This document shows positions 2,919 to 22,165 of a DNA stretch of 35,088 nucleotides, piece after piece (position 1 is the first letter of the stretch; the number at the start of each line of letters is the position of its first letter). Both the position numbers and the translations under genes were made by a program. Source of the stretch: Coriobacteriia bacterium (GTDB lineage Bacteria; Actinomycetota; Coriobacteriia; Anaerosomatales; Kmv31); assembly GCA_014859305.1 (NCBI GenBank), contig JACUUM010000027.1, positions 1 to 35,088 on the forward strand, given 5' to 3'. The notes below the pieces were generated by a model, which was not told the DNA's origin, made no database searches, and saw nothing but the letters and a program-made list of their open reading frames with translations.

Positions 2919-5693
2919 GTGCCGTTGCTCGTGATCACCGGCGCGGCGAACACCGGCAAGACCGGGTTCGTGTACGCCCGCATCCGCGAAGCGCTGGACG
3001 GAGGCGCGCGGCCGGTGCTGCTGCTGCCCTCGGCCGCCGACGTCGAGCGCGCGCGGCGGGAGTTCGCGGCGACCCATCCGGTGGGACTGACCGTCGCCCG
3101 GTTCGACGCGTACCTCGCGAACAGGTGGAGGACCCGAGGGGACGGCAGGAGGCTGGTCCAGCCCCCGCAGCGTCACGCGCTGATGTCCTCGGCGATCCGG
3201 GAAGCGGGGGGAGAGGTGCTGCGGGAGGTCGGCGAGGACGCCGGGACCGTGCACGTCCTGGCGCGCCTGGCGAAGGACTCGGCGGCGACCGCCGGCGCCG
3301 CCGGGCGGCCCTCCGGCGAGGCCGGCGAGCTCTACGACGTCGTCGGCAGCTACCGCGAGCTCCTCGGGCGGCACGGCCTGGTCGAGCCGGGCGAGGCGTT
3401 CTCGCTGCTCTCGGCAGACCCGCCTGCCTGCCACGGACCGGTCGCCGCCCACCGGTTCACCGACCTCGCGCCGCACCAGGAGGCCTATCTGCGCGGGCTG
3501 TCCGAGCGGGGGGTCGAGGTGCTCGTCTCGCTGACCTGGGTCGAAGGCTTCCCGGCGACGGCGGCGACCGGCGCGCTCGTCCGGCGTCTCTCCGGGGACG
3601 GGACGGTGGTGCTGCCCCGAGAGGACCGGCACACGCGATCGGAGGACTTGCGGGCGTTCACGGCTCACCTGTTCGCGCCGCCGGCGCAGCCGCTGCCTCC
3701 TCCATCGGACGTGGTCTTCGGGGTTTGCGGTGATGCCGAGGACGAGGTCGAGCGGGCGGCTGAGGAGGCTGCTCGCGCGATCTCCTCCGGCGTCCCCGCC
3801 GAGGAGGTGGCGCTCGTCTACCGGGATCCCTGGCCGCTGGCCCGCGGGCTGCGGCGCGCGCTGGCGGACAGGGGGCTGTCCTGCGACCTGGACTTCGACG
3901 TGCCGCTCCGCGCCCTGCCGCTCTCTCGCGCGGCGGCGCACCTTCTGCGCTTCGCCCTCACCGGAGCCCGTTCGGACCTGCTCTCGTGGCTGCGCTCGCC
4001 GTACTCGCCGGCTTCCGCCGAAGAAGCCGCGGCGCTCGAGGCGGGATGGCGGCGGCAGCGCGAGGAGCGGACCGAGGTGCTCGCGGCCTCGGCGGTACGG
4101 GCGGTCCCGGCGGCCAGGGGCCCGCTCCTCGCGGCCGGCGAGCTGGCCCGCCGACGCGTCGACGCGGAGTGGGCCACCGCGTGGGCGGGCCTGGTCCACG
4201 GACTGCTCGAAGCGGCCCACCCGGGCGACGCACCGCTGCTGGGCGAGTGGGGTGAGGAGGACGCGCAGGGGGCGGCCGGATCGCTGTCCATCGCCGCGGA
4301 CGCTGCGGATGCGAGGGGGGCCGACCTGGGCGCCTCCGACGTGCTGGTCGCGATCGAGACGGCCCGCGCGGAACCCGCCCGTGCGGAGCGCCCCGGCAGG
4401 GTGCAGGTGGTCAGCGCGCTCCGCGCGCGCTCCCGCCGCTTCGCGGTGGTCATCGTGGGCGGGCTCACCGCCGACGGCGGGTCGGCGCGCTCCGACGACA
4501 CGTACCGCGCGGGCGCGGTCGGCGCCGCCGCGCGAGCCCTGGGCGTGCCGGAGCGGGCGGGTGCCGAGGAGCGGGAGAGAGCGGAGTTCTACGCCGTGGC
4601 GACGCGCGCGAGGGAGCGCCTCGTGCTGCTGACCCATACGCTCGGCGAGGGAGGAGAGCCGTGCGCGGCCTCGGCCGCATGGACCGAGGCGCTCGAGGTC
4701 TACCGCGCGCAAGACGCCGAGGAAGGGACACCTGCGTTCGTGGACGTGGCAGGCGCTGCCGCGGCGGCAGCCGGTGCCCGGCGGCGGATGAGGGGTCTCG
4801 CGGAACGGATGGCGGAGGGCTCCGGGGAGGCCGTGGCCGGCCTGTCGGAGCGAGACGTCTTCTCGCCGGGCGAGCTCGAGACGTATCTCTCGTGCCCGGT
4901 GAGGTGGTTGCGCGACCGGTGGCTGCGGCCGCGGAAGGCCGACGCCCGGTTCGACGCGCTCGAGAGCGGGCGGCTCGTGCACGACGTGTTGCGCGAGACC
5001 CTGCGAGCGCTGCCCGCGGAGGCGGGCGTGGCTCGCGTGACCCCCGAGTCGCTGCCCGTGGCGCTGCGCCTGGCCCGGCAGGCGTTCGAGGCGGGTGCGT
5101 CGGCCCTGCCCGAGCCCCGTGACATCGACGAGCGGGACCGCCTCGAGACGGCGTGGGACCGGCTCGAGGCGTTCCTGGGAAGGGACGCCGCGTTCGTGCC
5201 ACGGCTGCAGCCGGTCGGATTGGAGCTGGGCTTCGGCCTCGCGCCCGATGACGACCCGGTCGACCTCGGGGACCTCAAGCTCCGGGGGCGCGTCGACCGC
5301 ATCGACTCCGACGGCGGCGTCTCCCTGGTCGTCGACTACAAGACCGGCGACGTGCCGCCGCCGCGCGACTTCGGAAGGCGGGGGCTGCTCCAGCTGCAGC
5401 TCTACACCGTCGCGCTGCGGACCCGCGGCATGCCTGTCGCGGGTGCCGTGTACCGCAGCCTGAGGAGCGGGCGGACCTCCGGCTTCTACCTCCGGGACGC
5501 CTTCCGCGCCGAGGAGCTGCCCGGAGCGCAGGCGCTGGACGCCGCGGCCTTCGAGGAGGTGCTGGACGACGCCGTCCGGCGGGCCCGCGACGCCGCCGAG
5601 GGCATCCGGCAGGGAAGGCTCGCGCCCGATCCCGCGCACGATGCCTGCCGGTACTGCGCGGTGAGCCACGCGTGCGAGAGGGGGGCGGCGTGA
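2919..5693 (+). CDS. addB: AddB-type exonuclease subunit (PD-(D/E)XK nuclease, Fe-S)
   Basis: Probable B subunit of an AddAB-like helicase-nuclease that resects double-strand breaks for recombination. The 924-aa protein begins with a P-loop, GAANTGKT (about residues 7-14), but lacks the other superfamily-1 helicase motifs, as in AddB. Near the C-terminus the RecB-like nuclease core is visible: GRVDRID and VVDYKTGD (about residues 787-812). Four cysteines typical of the AddB iron-sulfur cluster flank it: one in YLSCP (about 660) and three in CRYCAVSHAC (near 910-918). The start is GTG 2919. The end overlaps the addA start (TGATG). The middle of the protein is poorly conserved, so orthology with a particular Add/Adn subtype is uncertain. 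Confidence 0.8.
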   Translation: MPLLVITGAANTGKTGFVYARIREALDGGARPVLLLPSAADVERARREFAATHPVGLTVARFDAYLANRWRTRGDGRRLVQPPQRHALMSSAIREAGGEVLREVGEDAGTVHVLARLAKDSAATAGAAGRPSGEAGELYDVVGSYRELLGRHGLVEPGEAFSLLSADPPACHGPVAAHRFTDLAPHQEAYLRGLSERGVEVLVSLTWVEGFPATAATGALVRRLSGDGTVVLPREDRHTRSEDLRAFTAHLFAPPAQPLPPPSDVVFGVCGDAEDEVERAAEEAARAISSGVPAEEVALVYRDPWPLARGLRRALADRGLSCDLDFDVPLRALPLSRAAAHLLRFALTGARSDLLSWLRSPYSPASAEEAAALEAGWRRQREERTEVLAASAVRAVPAARGPLLAAGELARRRVDAEWATAWAGLVHGLLEAAHPGDAPLLGEWGEEDAQGAAGSLSIAADAADARGADLGASDVLVAIETARAEPARAERPGRVQVVSALRARSRRFAVVIVGGLTADGGSARSDDTYRAGAVGAAARALGVPERAGAEERERAEFYAVATRARERLVLLTHTLGEGGEPCAASAAWTEALEVYRAQDAEEGTPAFVDVAGAAAAAAGARRRMRGLAERMAEGSGEAVAGLSERDVFSPGELETYLSCPVRWLRDRWLRPRKADARFDALESGRLVHDVLRETLRALPAEAGVARVTPESLPVALRLARQAFEAGASALPEPRDIDERDRLETAWDRLEAFLGRDAAFVPRLQPVGLELGFGLAPDDDPVDLGDLKLRGRVDRIDSDGGVSLVVDYKTGDVPPPRDFGRRGLLQLQLYTVALRTRGMPVAGAVYRSLRSGRTSGFYLRDAFRAEELPGAQALDAAAFEEVLDDAVRRARDAAEGIRQGRLAPDPAHDACRYCAVSHACERGAA

Positions 5694-8600: not shown

Positions 8601-9079
8601 CGCCGCTCGCGGCTCGCGCGGAGGCCGAAGAGCGAATCGGCCGCGAGGTGCCCTTCGCCGTCATGCTCGACGGGACGCCGCTGACGGGCGCTATGGACCT
8701 CGTGTCCTGGTTCGGGGAGCGCGTGCTCGTCGTCGACTACAAGACCGGCGCCGGCGATGGTACCGGTGACCGCTCCGGCGGGGAGGCGTACCGCCTCCAG
8801 GCCGAGTGTTACGCGCTCGCGCTGCTCGAGAGCGGGGCCGGTGAGGTCGAGGTCGCCTTCGTCGCCTTGGAGCGCGGGTCGCGCATCACCTCGTCGCGGT
8901 TCCGATCCTCCGACGCGGCGCGCCTGCGCGAGCGGTTGGAGGGACTCGCCCGCGACGCACTTGGAGGGCCCTACCGGCCCAGGCCGCGCTACGACCGTCG
9001 CGTGTGCGGAGGCTGCCCCGCGCTCGGGGGCCTGTGCCCGGTCAGGCGCCCTCGGCGCCGCCCTCGCGGCGCTGCCTGA
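5693..9079 (+). CDS. addA: AddA-type helicase-nuclease (UvrD-like motor plus RecB nuclease)
   Basis: Motor and nuclease subunit of the AddAB-like complex, 1128 aa. Superfamily-1 motifs appear in order: AAGAGSGKT (near 22-31), AITFTRKAAAEL, STIHGFC, VDEFQDTN (~338), VVGDERQAIYSFRN (~362), NFRSRPP (~396), VHSAKGLEF (~691) and YVACTRGEERL (~767). An Ala/Pro/Glu-rich linker (~840-885) leads to a C-terminal nuclease with VVDYKTG (~1015). TECPYRFY (~896) and CGGCPALGGLC (~1104) supply four cysteines that look like an Fe-S clamp. I chose ATG 5693, which shares a base with the addB stop; GTG 5672 is also in frame. The 3' end overlaps convergent rlmN by 38 nt. Confidence 0.85.
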   Translation: MFRPTPAQGEAIRTLQGELFIAAGAGSGKTAVLARRFAEAVARGTPAERALAITFTRKAAAELEARIRRVLRYEHARPDAALAMGEAWVSTIHGFCSRLLRRHALEARLPPGFRVADEIETGLLREAAFEEAVSTRERDAGVGALLARFGAARLRATVPALHARLRSMGVAPDDLPLAEPPALREVLGRALAAIEAVLSAHPTPAANATQRDNAAALEAVARALREAGALAGERAAGAVIEARAACRLSRRCRATAGAIQEASEVLDELEDAARLAGIQPHRRALRGLLREFGERYSEGKRRAGVLDQDDLQEAAERLFRRRPDVAEEYARRFELIMVDEFQDTNALQVRVIEPIRRGDLCVVGDERQAIYSFRNADVEVFRQVRAGIDRTVSLDVNFRSRPPLLGFVNALFGAEELFGAGHEPLVPGGPASPTPPESAPCAEVLAVAREGWEGVSWREAEARALARRIRSLVREDGVPPGGVAVLLRALTGAAPYLAALEAEEVPALVAGGGSFASQPEALEMESLLAVAALPHDEEQFATLLLGDMIGLSGGAVLQLRELAEDRGMWAAVTAAAAGEGALPAGDRQRVRALRDAVEALRGECHRRGLGEALVRAIRILGLREALSGRGAAGERAWANVRKLVREAETFGRDETPDAGAFVERLRAWRLYGRSGQAPPPEAAEAVRIMSVHSAKGLEFPVVAVADLGRQVPSVEDLAIAVMRPGGPAWSLALPRSRTGEDGYVPMEHARMRAEEQQRRLAEEKRLLYVACTRGEERLILSGATSLDKGERDDRPIGWVRGALGLAEAVGEPGEREAGGARYVLEVVRPEDEPDAAPAREAPTHPRPSTPPVPSPPPGPAAAEAENAPEEPVENPQPEEPAAGPASLSFTALHTFTECPYRFYVERVAGLRAPGRDAGPMAFGSAAHAALETLGEQPLTDARIDAIASVHGLPSEEIPRLAAAVRAFAGSPLAARAEAEERIGREVPFAVMLDGTPLTGAMDLVSWFGERVLVVDYKTGAGDGTGDRSGGEAYRLQAECYALALLESGAGEVEVAFVALERGSRITSSRFRSSDAARLRERLEGLARDALGGPYRPRPRYDRRVCGGCPALGGLCPVRRPRRRPRGAA

Positions 9080-10082
9080 GCTGGCCGCATGCCGCGTCGA
9101 TGTCGGCTCCGCGCTCAGCGCGGATGCTCGCCTCGACCCCCGCAGCGGTCAGCGCGGAGAGGAACTCGCGCGCCCGCCGCGCGGAGCTGCGGTCGAAGCC
9201 GCATCCGTTCACCACGTTGGCGGGGATCAGGTTGACGTGCACGAGCAGTCCTCGACAGAACGCCAGGACGGCGGCGAGCTCCTCGGGCGTGTCATTGACG
9301 CCAGCCAGCAGCGCGTACTCGAGCGAGGGCCGCCGACCGGTCCGCTCGACGTACGAGACGAGGGACTCGCGCAGCGCCTCGAGCCTCACGCCGCGGACAC
9401 CGGGCATGAGGCGGTCACGCGTCTCCTGCACGGCGGAGTGCAGCGAGACCGCCAGCGTGAACTGCTCGGGCTCGCGGGCGAACCGGCGTATCGCCGGCGG
9501 CAGCCCGCACGTGGAGACGGTGATGTGACGGGCGCCGATCCCCAGCGCATCCGGCGAGTTGAGGATGCGCAGCGCCGCCAGTGTCGCCTCGTAGTTCGCG
9601 AACGGCTCTCCCTGCCCCATGGCCACCGCGTTGGCCACGCGCCGCCCGAAGTCGCGGCCGGCCATCGCCACCTGGTCGGCCATCTCGCCGGGCGAGAGGT
9701 CCCGGATGAAGCCGCCGCGGCCCGTGGCGCAGAAGGCGCAACCCATCCGGCAGCCGGCCTGCGTGGAGAAGCAGACCGTCAGTCGTTCGTCGGCGGGGAT
9801 CCCGACGCTCTCCACGGTCACGCCGTCGGCCAGCCGCCAGAGGTACTTGCGCGCCCCGTCTCTCGACACCTGCCGCTCGACGAGTCGCGGCACGCTCATC
9901 GCGAAGCGCTCGGCCAGCGCCGCGCGCAGCCCGGCGGGCAGATCCGTCATCTCGTCGAAGGATGTGGCGCCGCGCGCGTAGAGCCAGCGCAGCACCTGCG
10001 ACGCGCGGTAGCGGGGCTCACCGAGGTCCGACAGCGCCTCTGCGATCCCTCCGACGTCCATCGACTTGATGTCGGCCCTCAT
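9042..10082 (-). CDS. rlmN: Dual-specificity 23S rRNA A2503 / tRNA A37 methyltransferase RlmN
   Basis: A radical-SAM enzyme that methylates C2 of A2503 in 23S rRNA and of A37 in some tRNAs. The 346-aa protein contains the cluster motif CRMGCAFC (CxxxCxxC) and the C-terminal catalytic cysteine in GADIDAACGQL. It has VSTCGLPP and the SAM-binding AVSLHSA block. The usual MGMGEP reads MGQGEPFANYE here, a mild departure. The Cfr/RlmN split cannot be made with certainty by eye, but the N-terminus (GEPRYRASQVLRWLY) is RlmN-like. TAGTAT lies 6 nt upstream of the ATG and no clear ribosome site is seen, so a leaderless transcript is possible. Convergent overlap with addA. Confidence 0.92.
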   Translation of the reverse strand: MRADIKSMDVGGIAEALSDLGEPRYRASQVLRWLYARGATSFDEMTDLPAGLRAALAERFAMSVPRLVERQVSRDGARKYLWRLADGVTVESVGIPADERLTVCFSTQAGCRMGCAFCATGRGGFIRDLSPGEMADQVAMAGRDFGRRVANAVAMGQGEPFANYEATLAALRILNSPDALGIGARHITVSTCGLPPAIRRFAREPEQFTLAVSLHSAVQETRDRLMPGVRGVRLEALRESLVSYVERTGRRPSLEYALLAGVNDTPEELAAVLAFCRGLLVHVNLIPANVVNGCGFDRSSARRAREFLSALTAAGVEASIRAERGADIDAACGQLRQRREGGAEGA

Positions 10083-20489: not shown

Positions 20490-20753
20490 GTGTCCCGCGC
20501 GAGGCCGGCCGTTCGCGCGAGGGGCGCCGTCCCCGCTGAGGACCGAGCGGCCTGCGCGGCCGGCACCGGAGTTGCGACGCCCTGTCCGACGTGCGGGTTC
20601 CCTTCGGCGGAGATCCGCTGCCCGCGCTGCTTCGCGCTGAAGGTGCGCGGCTGCTCGGGGAGTTGCGGGAGCTGCCCGGCAGGGGGCCCGCGGGGGCGGG
20701 TGCGCGTGCCCGCACCACGGCGAGCGCTCGAGGAGCCGAGCAGGAAGGGGTAG
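20490..20753 (+). CDS. Small Cys-rich protein following feoB (FeoC-position gene)
   Basis: An 87-aa protein starting at a GTG directly after the feoB stop. Eight cysteines fall in CPTCG, CPRC and CSGSCGSC within residues about 32-63, suggesting a zinc-ribbon-like or Fe-S site. The two ends are Arg/Pro-rich. It has no transmembrane segment, so it is not the known FeoB-associated Cys-rich membrane protein, nor a winged-helix FeoC. The place in the operon suggests an accessory role in Fe2+ uptake (inference). The exact start is uncertain, since the first 25 residues are not conserved-looking. Confidence 0.6.
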   Translation: MSRARPAVRARGAVPAEDRAACAAGTGVATPCPTCGFPSAEIRCPRCFALKVRGCSGSCGSCPAGGPRGRVRVPAPRRALEEPSRKG

Positions 20754-20852: not shown

Positions 20853-21899
20853 ATGGACTCGACCGCGGACGGCTCCAGGGACCTCGGCGCGGCACGGAGC
20901 GCTCTCGCGACGTCGCGGCAGGCGCTGCTGCGGCGGCCGAACGTCGTCGCCACCGGCGTCGGCTACAAGCAGGTGGAGGGCGAGAGCACCGGCGAGGTGG
21001 GCATCGTGTGCTCCGTGACCCGCAAGCTACCCGCGACACAGCTCGCGCCGGGGGATCTCGTCCCGTCCGAGGTCGAAGGGGTACGGACCGACGTGGTGCA
21101 GACCGGTGTCATCCGCGCCCTGGACTGGGAGCCGGCCGCGCAACCGGACGAGCCGGGGGATCCGAAGCGGAGGCATCGCCCGGCGCCGGGCGGCGTGAGC
21201 GTGGGGCACGTCGCGGTCACCGCCGGCACGCTGGGCTGTCTGGTCCGTCGCGGCGGCGAGATCCTCATCCTCTCGAACAACCACGTGCTGGCCGTCTCCA
21301 ACGCCGCCTCGCCAGGCGACACGATCCTGCAGCCGGGCCCGTACGACGGCGGCTCGGACCCCGGCGACGCGATCGCGCTGCTCGATGCGTTCGTCCCGAT
21401 CCGGCTCGCCGAGGGGCCTTCGTCATGCCCGCTCGCCGCGGGCGCGGCGCGCGCCCTCAACGCGCTCGCGCGACTCTTCGGCAGCGACACGCGCCTGCGA
21501 GCGGTGAGCCTCGCCGCCCCCGAGAACCTCGTCGACGCCGCCCTCGGCGCTCCGCTGGACCCCTCGCTCGTGTCGCCGGAGATCCTCGGCGTCGGCACGC
21601 CGCAGGGGGCCGCGTCCGGCGAGCTGGGCATGAGAGTCCGGAAGAGCGGGCGCACCACCGGGCTCACGGAGGGGCGGATCGAGCAGGTGGACGTCACCGT
21701 CGACGTCACCTACGGCGAGCGCACGGCGCGCTTCGCCGATCAGCTGATGGCGGGCGCGATGAGCGCCGGCGGCGACAGCGGCTCCGTCGTGCTGGACGGG
21801 ACCGGCGCCGCGGTGGGGCTGCTGTTCGCGGGCAGCGAGACGAGCACGATCGTCAACCGCATCGAGAACGTGCTGACCGCCCTGGGGGTCGCGCTGTGA
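20853..21899 (+). CDS. Trypsin-like serine protease with an N-terminal NAL1-type domain
   Basis: A 348-aa protein with two parts. Residues about 20-85 (LLRRPNVVATGVGYK ... GIVCSVTRKLP) form a small alpha/beta domain seen ahead of such proteases. Residues about 112-345 are a chymotrypsin-fold domain with His144 (SNNHVLA), a likely Asp172 (DPGDAIALLD) and Ser309 (AGGDSGSVV), plus RKSGRTTGLTEG. The pattern resembles the bacterial/plant family that includes rice NAL1. No signal peptide is seen, so it may be cytoplasmic. The start is ATG 20853 after GGAAGGGGGG; a longer frame exists. The stop overlaps the next GTG (GTGA), so the two are coupled. Confidence 0.75.
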   Translation: MDSTADGSRDLGAARSALATSRQALLRRPNVVATGVGYKQVEGESTGEVGIVCSVTRKLPATQLAPGDLVPSEVEGVRTDVVQTGVIRALDWEPAAQPDEPGDPKRRHRPAPGGVSVGHVAVTAGTLGCLVRRGGEILILSNNHVLAVSNAASPGDTILQPGPYDGGSDPGDAIALLDAFVPIRLAEGPSSCPLAAGAARALNALARLFGSDTRLRAVSLAAPENLVDAALGAPLDPSLVSPEILGVGTPQGAASGELGMRVRKSGRTTGLTEGRIEQVDVTVDVTYGERTARFADQLMAGAMSAGGDSGSVVLDGTGAAVGLLFAGSETSTIVNRIENVLTALGVAL

Positions 21900-22165
21900 G
21901 CGCGGAGCGCACCGGCGGCACCGGCGGCCGGGGGGGCGGCGAGCTCGAGCGGGCCAGGCGCGCGCGAGAGCGCCACGCCGGACGGCTGCTCTCGCGGCCA
22001 GGGGTCGTCTCGGTCGGCGTGGGGCTGGACGACGAGGGGCGCCCGGCGGTGGTGGTGGGCGTGACCGGGGTGCGGGCGAGCGACGCCGGCCTGCCCGGGT
22101 GCATCGACGGCGTCCCGGTGCTCGTTAGGGAGACCGGGCGGCCGGTCGCCGAGGACGGGGAGTAG
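21896..22165 (+). CDS. Standalone copy of the protease N-terminal-type domain
   Basis: An 89-aa protein translated from GTG 21896, which overlaps the protease stop. Its core (AGRLLSRPGVVSVGVGLD ... PAVVVGVTG ... CIDGVPVLVRETGRPV) resembles the first domain of the upstream protease (LLRRPNVVATGVGYK). The first 25 residues are a Gly/Arg-rich tail. I propose that it binds or restrains the protease, like a detached propeptide; this is inference from similarity and coupling. Confidence 0.6.
   Translation: MSAERTGGTGGRGGGELERARRARERHAGRLLSRPGVVSVGVGLDDEGRPAVVVGVTGVRASDAGLPGCIDGVPVLVRETGRPVAEDGE

Follow-up and report, generated by a model that had tools for sequence, protein, structure and literature searches.

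In the window, which is the whole stretch of 35,088 nucleotides analysed here from a Coriobacteriia bacterium, a serine protease gene is directly followed by a small gene whose product resembles the first domain of the protease. Pairs of this kind are found in many bacteria, and the small protein may be a regulator of the enzyme.

Organization of the locus

The protease P0001 (348 aa, positions 20853..21899, + strand) is defined by its open reading frame and translation, while the stand-alone companion P0002 (89 aa, 21896..22165, + strand) is defined by its open reading frame and by a companion-family profile, which matches it with an E-value of 4.3e-20. Both genes lie on contig C27 of a 2.13-Mb genome, which carries one copy of each, P0002 being its sole non-protease match to the companion-family profile. 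The first-pass annotation had described the 89-aa product as beginning on the protease stop codon, which is correct: the GTG start of the companion (21896-21898) overlaps the TGA stop of the protease (21897-21899), and the overlap reads GTGA (21896..21899, + strand). FeoA and FeoB are encoded upstream of the pair, and an ADP-ribosylglycohydrolase and a ferredoxin-type protein are encoded downstream on the opposite strand. An 87-aa Cys-rich ORF with two CxxC-type pairs and no Pfam match is located between FeoB and the protease (20490-20753).

The protease is related to plant NAL1

P0001 has an N-terminal NAL1_N-type domain (residues 10-90; 20880..21122, + strand), assigned by a sub-threshold match to PF25608 and by the AlphaFold2 model, and a trypsin-like catalytic domain of the alpha-lytic/streptogrisin type (residues 109-348; 21177..21896, + strand), assigned by its structural match to 2sfa and by the triad. 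The triad is intact and is built by His144 (codon 21282..21284), Asp172 (21366..21368) and Ser309 (21777..21779, in the motif GGDSGS), all on the + strand and invariant in 79/79 aligned proteases; the role of His144 is assigned from the alignment, and Asp172 is the probable catalytic aspartate judging by its position. P0001 has no signal peptide.

The matches of P0001 to the PFAM models Trypsin_2, NAL1_N and Nal1_C are weak and all under the cut-offs (19.9 bits of 27 and E 0.00062 for NAL1_N, PF25608; 14.6 bits of 26.1 for Nal1_C). Within the protease family, PF25608 is matched by 72/75 members and Trypsin_2 by 71/75 (E<=0.01). The AlphaFold2 model has a pLDDT of 93.7, with residues 11-90 of the N-domain at 93-98 by block, and the predicted order of elements in this domain is helix-strand-strand-short helix-strand. 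Its best structural matches are to rice NAL1 (PF25608 plus PF25819), with which it shares the two-part layout and the fold (Z up to 28.1, 3.8 A over 298 residues), and the catalytic part matches streptogrisin and alpha-lytic proteases with Z about 20 (2sfa: VIA-align Z 21.3, 1.7 A over 180 residues), which places it in the structural group of alpha-lytic protease. Since P0001, unlike the plant protein, scores below the Pfam NAL1_N and Nal1_C cut-offs, it is named here NAL1-like, a divergent bacterial relative and not a NAL1. By analogy with plant NAL1, the N-domain, which has a pro-region-like fold, appears to stay attached to the enzyme; NAL1 chains in solved structures still carry theirs (8pn1, residues 92-173). 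For plant NAL1, a free-standing second copy of the N-domain is not known to us.

Rhizobium plasmids NZ_CP088013, NZ_CP149877 and NZ_CP148094 carry relatives of the first half of the protease under genes annotated as DNA/RNA non-specific endonuclease, an Aeropyrum virus encodes a relative annotated as putative serine protease (HE681887, 10523-10969), and a 484-kb uncultured phage encodes another (LR756508, 90187-91158). In the protease ORF of L181, inspected by eye, the N-domain is seemingly swapped for transposase-like sequence, perhaps by insertion.

The companion is homologous to the protease N-domain

The folded, pro-like domain of the companion comprises residues 16-85 (21941..22150, + strand) in the AlphaFold2 model, whose mean pLDDT is 73.6 and which contains helix 14-32, strands 37-44 and 50-56, helix 61-64 and strand 73-79; the first 15 residues form a Gly-rich tail of lower model confidence. 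The LLxRPxVVxxGVG pattern that the first-pass annotation saw in both proteins is real, and the pairwise match in the window (13/27 identical, E 0.008) is weak alone. The similarity is not confined to the motif and covers the whole domain: in hhalign, a profile of 64 companions matches a profile of 75 proteases with a probability of 97.5% and E 5e-12 over 74 columns, the aligned part being roughly residues 16-86 in the companion and 10-90 in the protease, and the match rises to 98.4% (E 6.7e-15) against the N-domain columns only. Alpha-lytic pro-region lobes, used as control in the same test, reach at most 4%. The structure comparison proposed in the first-pass annotation shows helix and strands in matching order in the AlphaFold2 models of both domains, not different folds.

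None of the 64 companions matches PF25608 (NAL1_N) at E<=0.1, and judged by sequence profiles the companion is homologous to NAL1_N only through the bacterial N-domain profile. Pfam returns no true family for the 64 companions, only seven scattered single weak hits, and NCBIfam matches 0/64. The companion family is covered by neither Pfam, NCBIfam nor PADLOC, and is widespread and unnamed.

Three residues of the covalent N-domain (K39, K58 and D80) are invariant, and two more (N30 and T79) are nearly so. At the K39, K58 and D80 positions, as paired by the hhalign profile alignment, the companions mostly have other residues, such as D at the K39 position in 33/68, so most of them would be unable to make all the contacts of the covalent domain. 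The idea of a simple decoy, raised in the first-pass annotation, is weakened by these replacements, and a partner that binds in its own way looks more likely than a drop-in decoy. The loss of the invariant residues, which suggests different contacts, would also suit a structural or adaptor subunit that becomes part of the protease oligomer, brings in substrate or tethers the enzyme to the membrane but does not inhibit it, and the lipobox-like signal peptides of some relatives (at least 16/44) point the same way. Against such a subunit, which we regard as rather unlikely, most companions end where the domain ends, and no further region for substrate binding can be seen. A separate proposal, that the C-terminal "AQ" tail of the companion acts in the active site, was set aside: the last residue varies among companions (Q in 37/68, L in 11, R in 8).

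The weak pairwise similarity in the window (E 0.008) is what a decayed duplicate or a chance ORF could also give. This explanation is refuted by conservation and has practically no probability left, as 64 companions from many phyla can be aligned, with conserved glycines, a conserved overlap and a single old origin.

Predicted fold of the companion

In a Foldseek search of the companion against 350,542 PDB chains, most of the top rows are the pro region of alpha-lytic protease (4pro, 3pro, 2pro; probability 0.95-1.0, E 0.016-0.13), and NAL1 is found at rank 9. VIA-align gives Z 6.9 with 2pro and Z 6.2 with the NAL1 N-domain (8pn1 residues 92-173; 2.4 A over 65 residues). The predicted companion is closest, in fold only, to the pro region of alpha-lytic protease and to the N-domain of NAL1. 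All its fold Z-values are below 8 and come from a model of middling confidence, and membership in Pro_Al_protease (PF02983) is not supported by sequence, as hhalign gives at most 4% against alpha-lytic-relative lobes (8 and 10 sequences). For these reasons the resemblance to the alpha-lytic pro region is a lead to mechanism, not a sign of membership.

According to PMC2829044, the pro region of alpha-lytic protease catalyses folding, and the point where it joins the protease is situated across the active site. The companion might likewise be a chaperone in trans that helps the catalytic domain to fold and then leaves or is degraded. Its predicted fold resembles that of a known foldase, the gene overlap puts its synthesis right after that of the protease, and fused and split arrangements of the two parts exist. 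However, the protease keeps its own N-domain and 10/80 relatives (L072-L081) have no companion nearby, so the companion cannot be a foldase that the whole family requires, and a chaperone role is unlikely.

Recurrence of the pair

In the genome collection, a scan found 269 relatives of the protease, and the best 80 of them were used. A profile made from downstream ORFs had 70 matches among non-protease ORFs at E<1e-4, and 80 protease ORFs were hit as well, the best of them with E 1.2e-11. The first-pass annotation had asked whether the pair recurs in other genomes, and it does: among these best 80 of 269, the companion is directly downstream of the protease, on the same strand and ending within 400 nt, in 62 loci. 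One further companion is at 716 nt, two are directly upstream (L062, L071), two are nearby on the other strand, and L070 has a split N-domain gene. The stretch around the protease contains no companion in 12/80 loci, including L040, which is at a contig edge, and L056, whose genome has a companion beside a second protease; L072-L081, from Bacillota and Thermoplasmata, seem to be without it. An in-frame NTGA overlap of protease stop and companion is present in 50/85 pairs examined.

Across sampled genomes the domain is patchy, being matched (E<=0.001, protease N-domains included) in 17/246 genomes of the phylum of the window, 23/369 of the class of G277, 10/98 of the class of G254, 6/57 of the order of G263 and 8/192 of the class of G264. 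In the archaeal relative L071 (4774-4983) the order is reversed, the companion being first and its TAA stop overlapping the protease ATG. In L051, another companion-like stretch, which looks broken, is located 3-4 kb beyond the downstream end of the pair (8986-9738).

No neighbour family is common to many relatives in the 80 loci: the two most populated clusters consist of antisense ORFs of the protease/companion pair itself, and all others occur in at most 11/80. The compact overlapping unit, the absence of widely common neighbours, the patchy spread (10/98 and 6/57 genomes, for example) and the exported look of the long companion form in many loci would suit a toxin-antitoxin or immunity pair, in which a free protease is harmful and the companion neutralises it. 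This is very improbable, because PADLOC defence models match 0/4 of the proteins searched, the protease gene comes first in most loci, and related proteases exist that have no companion.

Origin and co-inheritance with the protease

When 64 companions and 75 N-domains are placed in one tree, built from few columns with a quick method, the two groups stand on the two sides of a single branch (SH-aLRT 99). Companions are about as similar to the N-domain of their own protease (24.5% identity) as to those of others (23.9%), so a recent duplicate is ruled out by the single split together with these equal identities. The first description of the companion as a stand-alone copy of the protease N-domain stands as to homology, which is full length (E 5e-12); the copy is not a recent one. 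Companion distances track those of the catalytic domain (Spearman 0.60 over 61 pairs, with 0/1000 permutations as high). Row set A1 is without the companions or N-domain pieces of L062, L063, L068, L070 and L071, and row set A2 is without L006, L036, L039, L040, L070 and L074. Because all 64 companions are on one side of a single branch, the sequences indicate that the companion is one old gene, co-inherited with the protease.

An independent paralogue that binds something else and shares only the mRNA with the protease would explain the low identity to the covalent domain and the stand-alone relatives with no protease in the short stretch seen around them (such as L084, L089, L095, L096 and L100). 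It would not be expected to show distances tracking the catalytic domain, a fusion such as that of L167 or strong adjacency to the protease, and we consider it improbable.

Fused and split arrangements

L167, from a metagenome-assembled genome (MAG), has a secreted catalytic domain without N-domain and a companion-type domain fused at its C-terminus (residues 305-374, E 3.8e-16). It is the only such fusion among 169 protease ORFs of at least 200 aa, a set that includes repeats of the same genes; among 398 genomes from the phylum of G263 the query was the only C-terminal fusion of this type, and plasmids gave no match. In L070 (a Methanocellales MAG), the N-domain is a separate gene that ends at the domain boundary, and the catalytic gene comes next with AGGAGG and a GTG start. 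The archaeal genome G1381, which is 76% identical, is also split, but at a different junction; the protease is present in 2/11 genomes of the class of these two, and both are split. Secreted relatives (such as L088, L127, L129, L136 and L138) have a signal peptide, a companion-like N-domain, a linker and the protease, that is, a pre-pro-protease layout. Taken together, the fusion, the splits and the pre-pro layouts suggest that the domain does not need a covalent link in front of the catalytic domain in order to act with it. Each of these sequences comes from a MAG, so the single fusion of L167 could be an assembly error.

Signal peptides and internal starts in relatives

A signal-peptide-like N-terminus is found in 44/85 companions just downstream of the protease (hydrophobicity cut 2.0, with L009 just under at 1.99), and it is lipobox-like in at least 16 of the 44. 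Of these 44, 40 begin at, or read through, the in-frame NTGA overlap with the protease stop. After removal of L125 and L176, which belong to a divergent lineage, an in-frame internal start is present in 42/42 signal-peptide companions (ATG in 31, GTG in 11), at the position where relatives that have no signal peptide (L008, L042, L055) begin. All 11 ATG replacements are GTG, yet GTG makes up only 211/464 of the valine codons in these genes, and nine ATG-GTG changes are needed on the protease tree, five of them forced by starred branches. The 13 bases ending 5 nt before the internal start pair with the anti-Shine-Dalgarno sequence at -5.2 kcal/mol, against -2.8 kcal/mol at 3,296 other positions (0/20,000 draws); five Chlorobi-type rows have no Shine-Dalgarno signal there. 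Because the sequences are related and hence not independent, these statistics are only indicative. Among the partner proteases no credible signal peptide is seen, the two hits (L007 and L024, with TTG starts) looking spurious.

These features suggest exported and cytosolic forms of the companion in many Gram-negative relatives. One companion gene would there give two proteins, a signal-peptide form whose translation reinitiates after termination at the protease stop codon, and a shorter form that starts at the internal ATG or GTG and stays in the cytosol, so that the regulator guards both sides of the membrane and the exported form locks protease that has escaped; we hold this scheme to be possible but doubtful. 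The companion of the window has neither signal peptide nor internal start.

Proposed role of the companion

The reading that we prefer, with a probability of about 0.45, is that the companion is a trans-acting regulator of pro-domain type for the protease and most likely an inhibitor, as suggested by sequences, models and analogy. Protease and companion would form a self-contained two-gene pair, in which the companion would be an anciently diverged free form of the protease N-domain, probably made by translational coupling from the protease mRNA. It would most likely bind the catalytic domain in trans, at a putative contact site there, and the bound companion would hold or tune protease activity as a separate propeptide would.

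Trans regulation is argued for by the full-length homology to the N-domain with its same helix and strand order, and by the top fold matches of the companion, which are to the pro region of the very protease group that the catalytic domain also matches. It is further argued for by the downstream position in 62/80 loci (best 80 of 269) with distances that track the catalytic domain, by the L167 fusion and the archaeal splits, and by the precedent of SUB1-ProM in another clan. Against it, only the fold links the companion to the alpha-lytic pro region (profile at most 4%, Z below 8), and 10/80 relatives (L072-L081) have no companion in the stretch around the protease. In addition, in 42 Gram-negative-type loci the long companion looks exported, judging by its N-terminus, and the protease has no credible signal peptide.

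Comparison with known systems

The first-pass annotation knew of no described system of this form, which was too strong a statement. In Plasmodium, as PMC6993865 describes, SUB1-ProM is a stand-alone propeptide-like protein that inhibits subtilases in trans, and its gene is located beside subtilisin genes, as that of the companion adjoins a protease gene. SUB1-ProM, TgMIC5 and the yeast peptidase B inhibitor share with the companion the character of a free-standing relative of a protease propeptide. They differ from it in belonging to another protease clan with another propeptide fold (beta-alpha-beta twice) and in that inhibition is proven there, whereas the window companion is known from sequence and models; the window protease also apparently retains its covalent domain. 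The pro region of alpha-lytic protease (PF02983), which is the top structural match of the companion, is larger and has no sequence-profile similarity to it, and differs in being made joined to the enzyme, then cleaved and degraded, according to PMC2829044.

Plant NAL1 is like the window pair in that its N-domain has the fold matched by the companion. The open literature, with most subscription journals outside the scope, gave no account of a stand-alone N-domain regulator for this protease type. No NAL1 structure paper was found in the open literature either, and a term search of one NAL1 paper, PMC12915138, gave none of six structure terms.

The concept of a stand-alone propeptide-like inhibitor is known for subtilisins, and would be extended here to the trypsin clan. 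The companions make up a widespread protein family that has no name yet and is tied to NAL1-like proteases, and they offer a testable idea for the role of the NAL1 N-domain, in a protease that affects leaf and grain traits in rice. The apparent dual-start gene of the relatives, if true, would be an unusual route for placing one regulator in two compartments.
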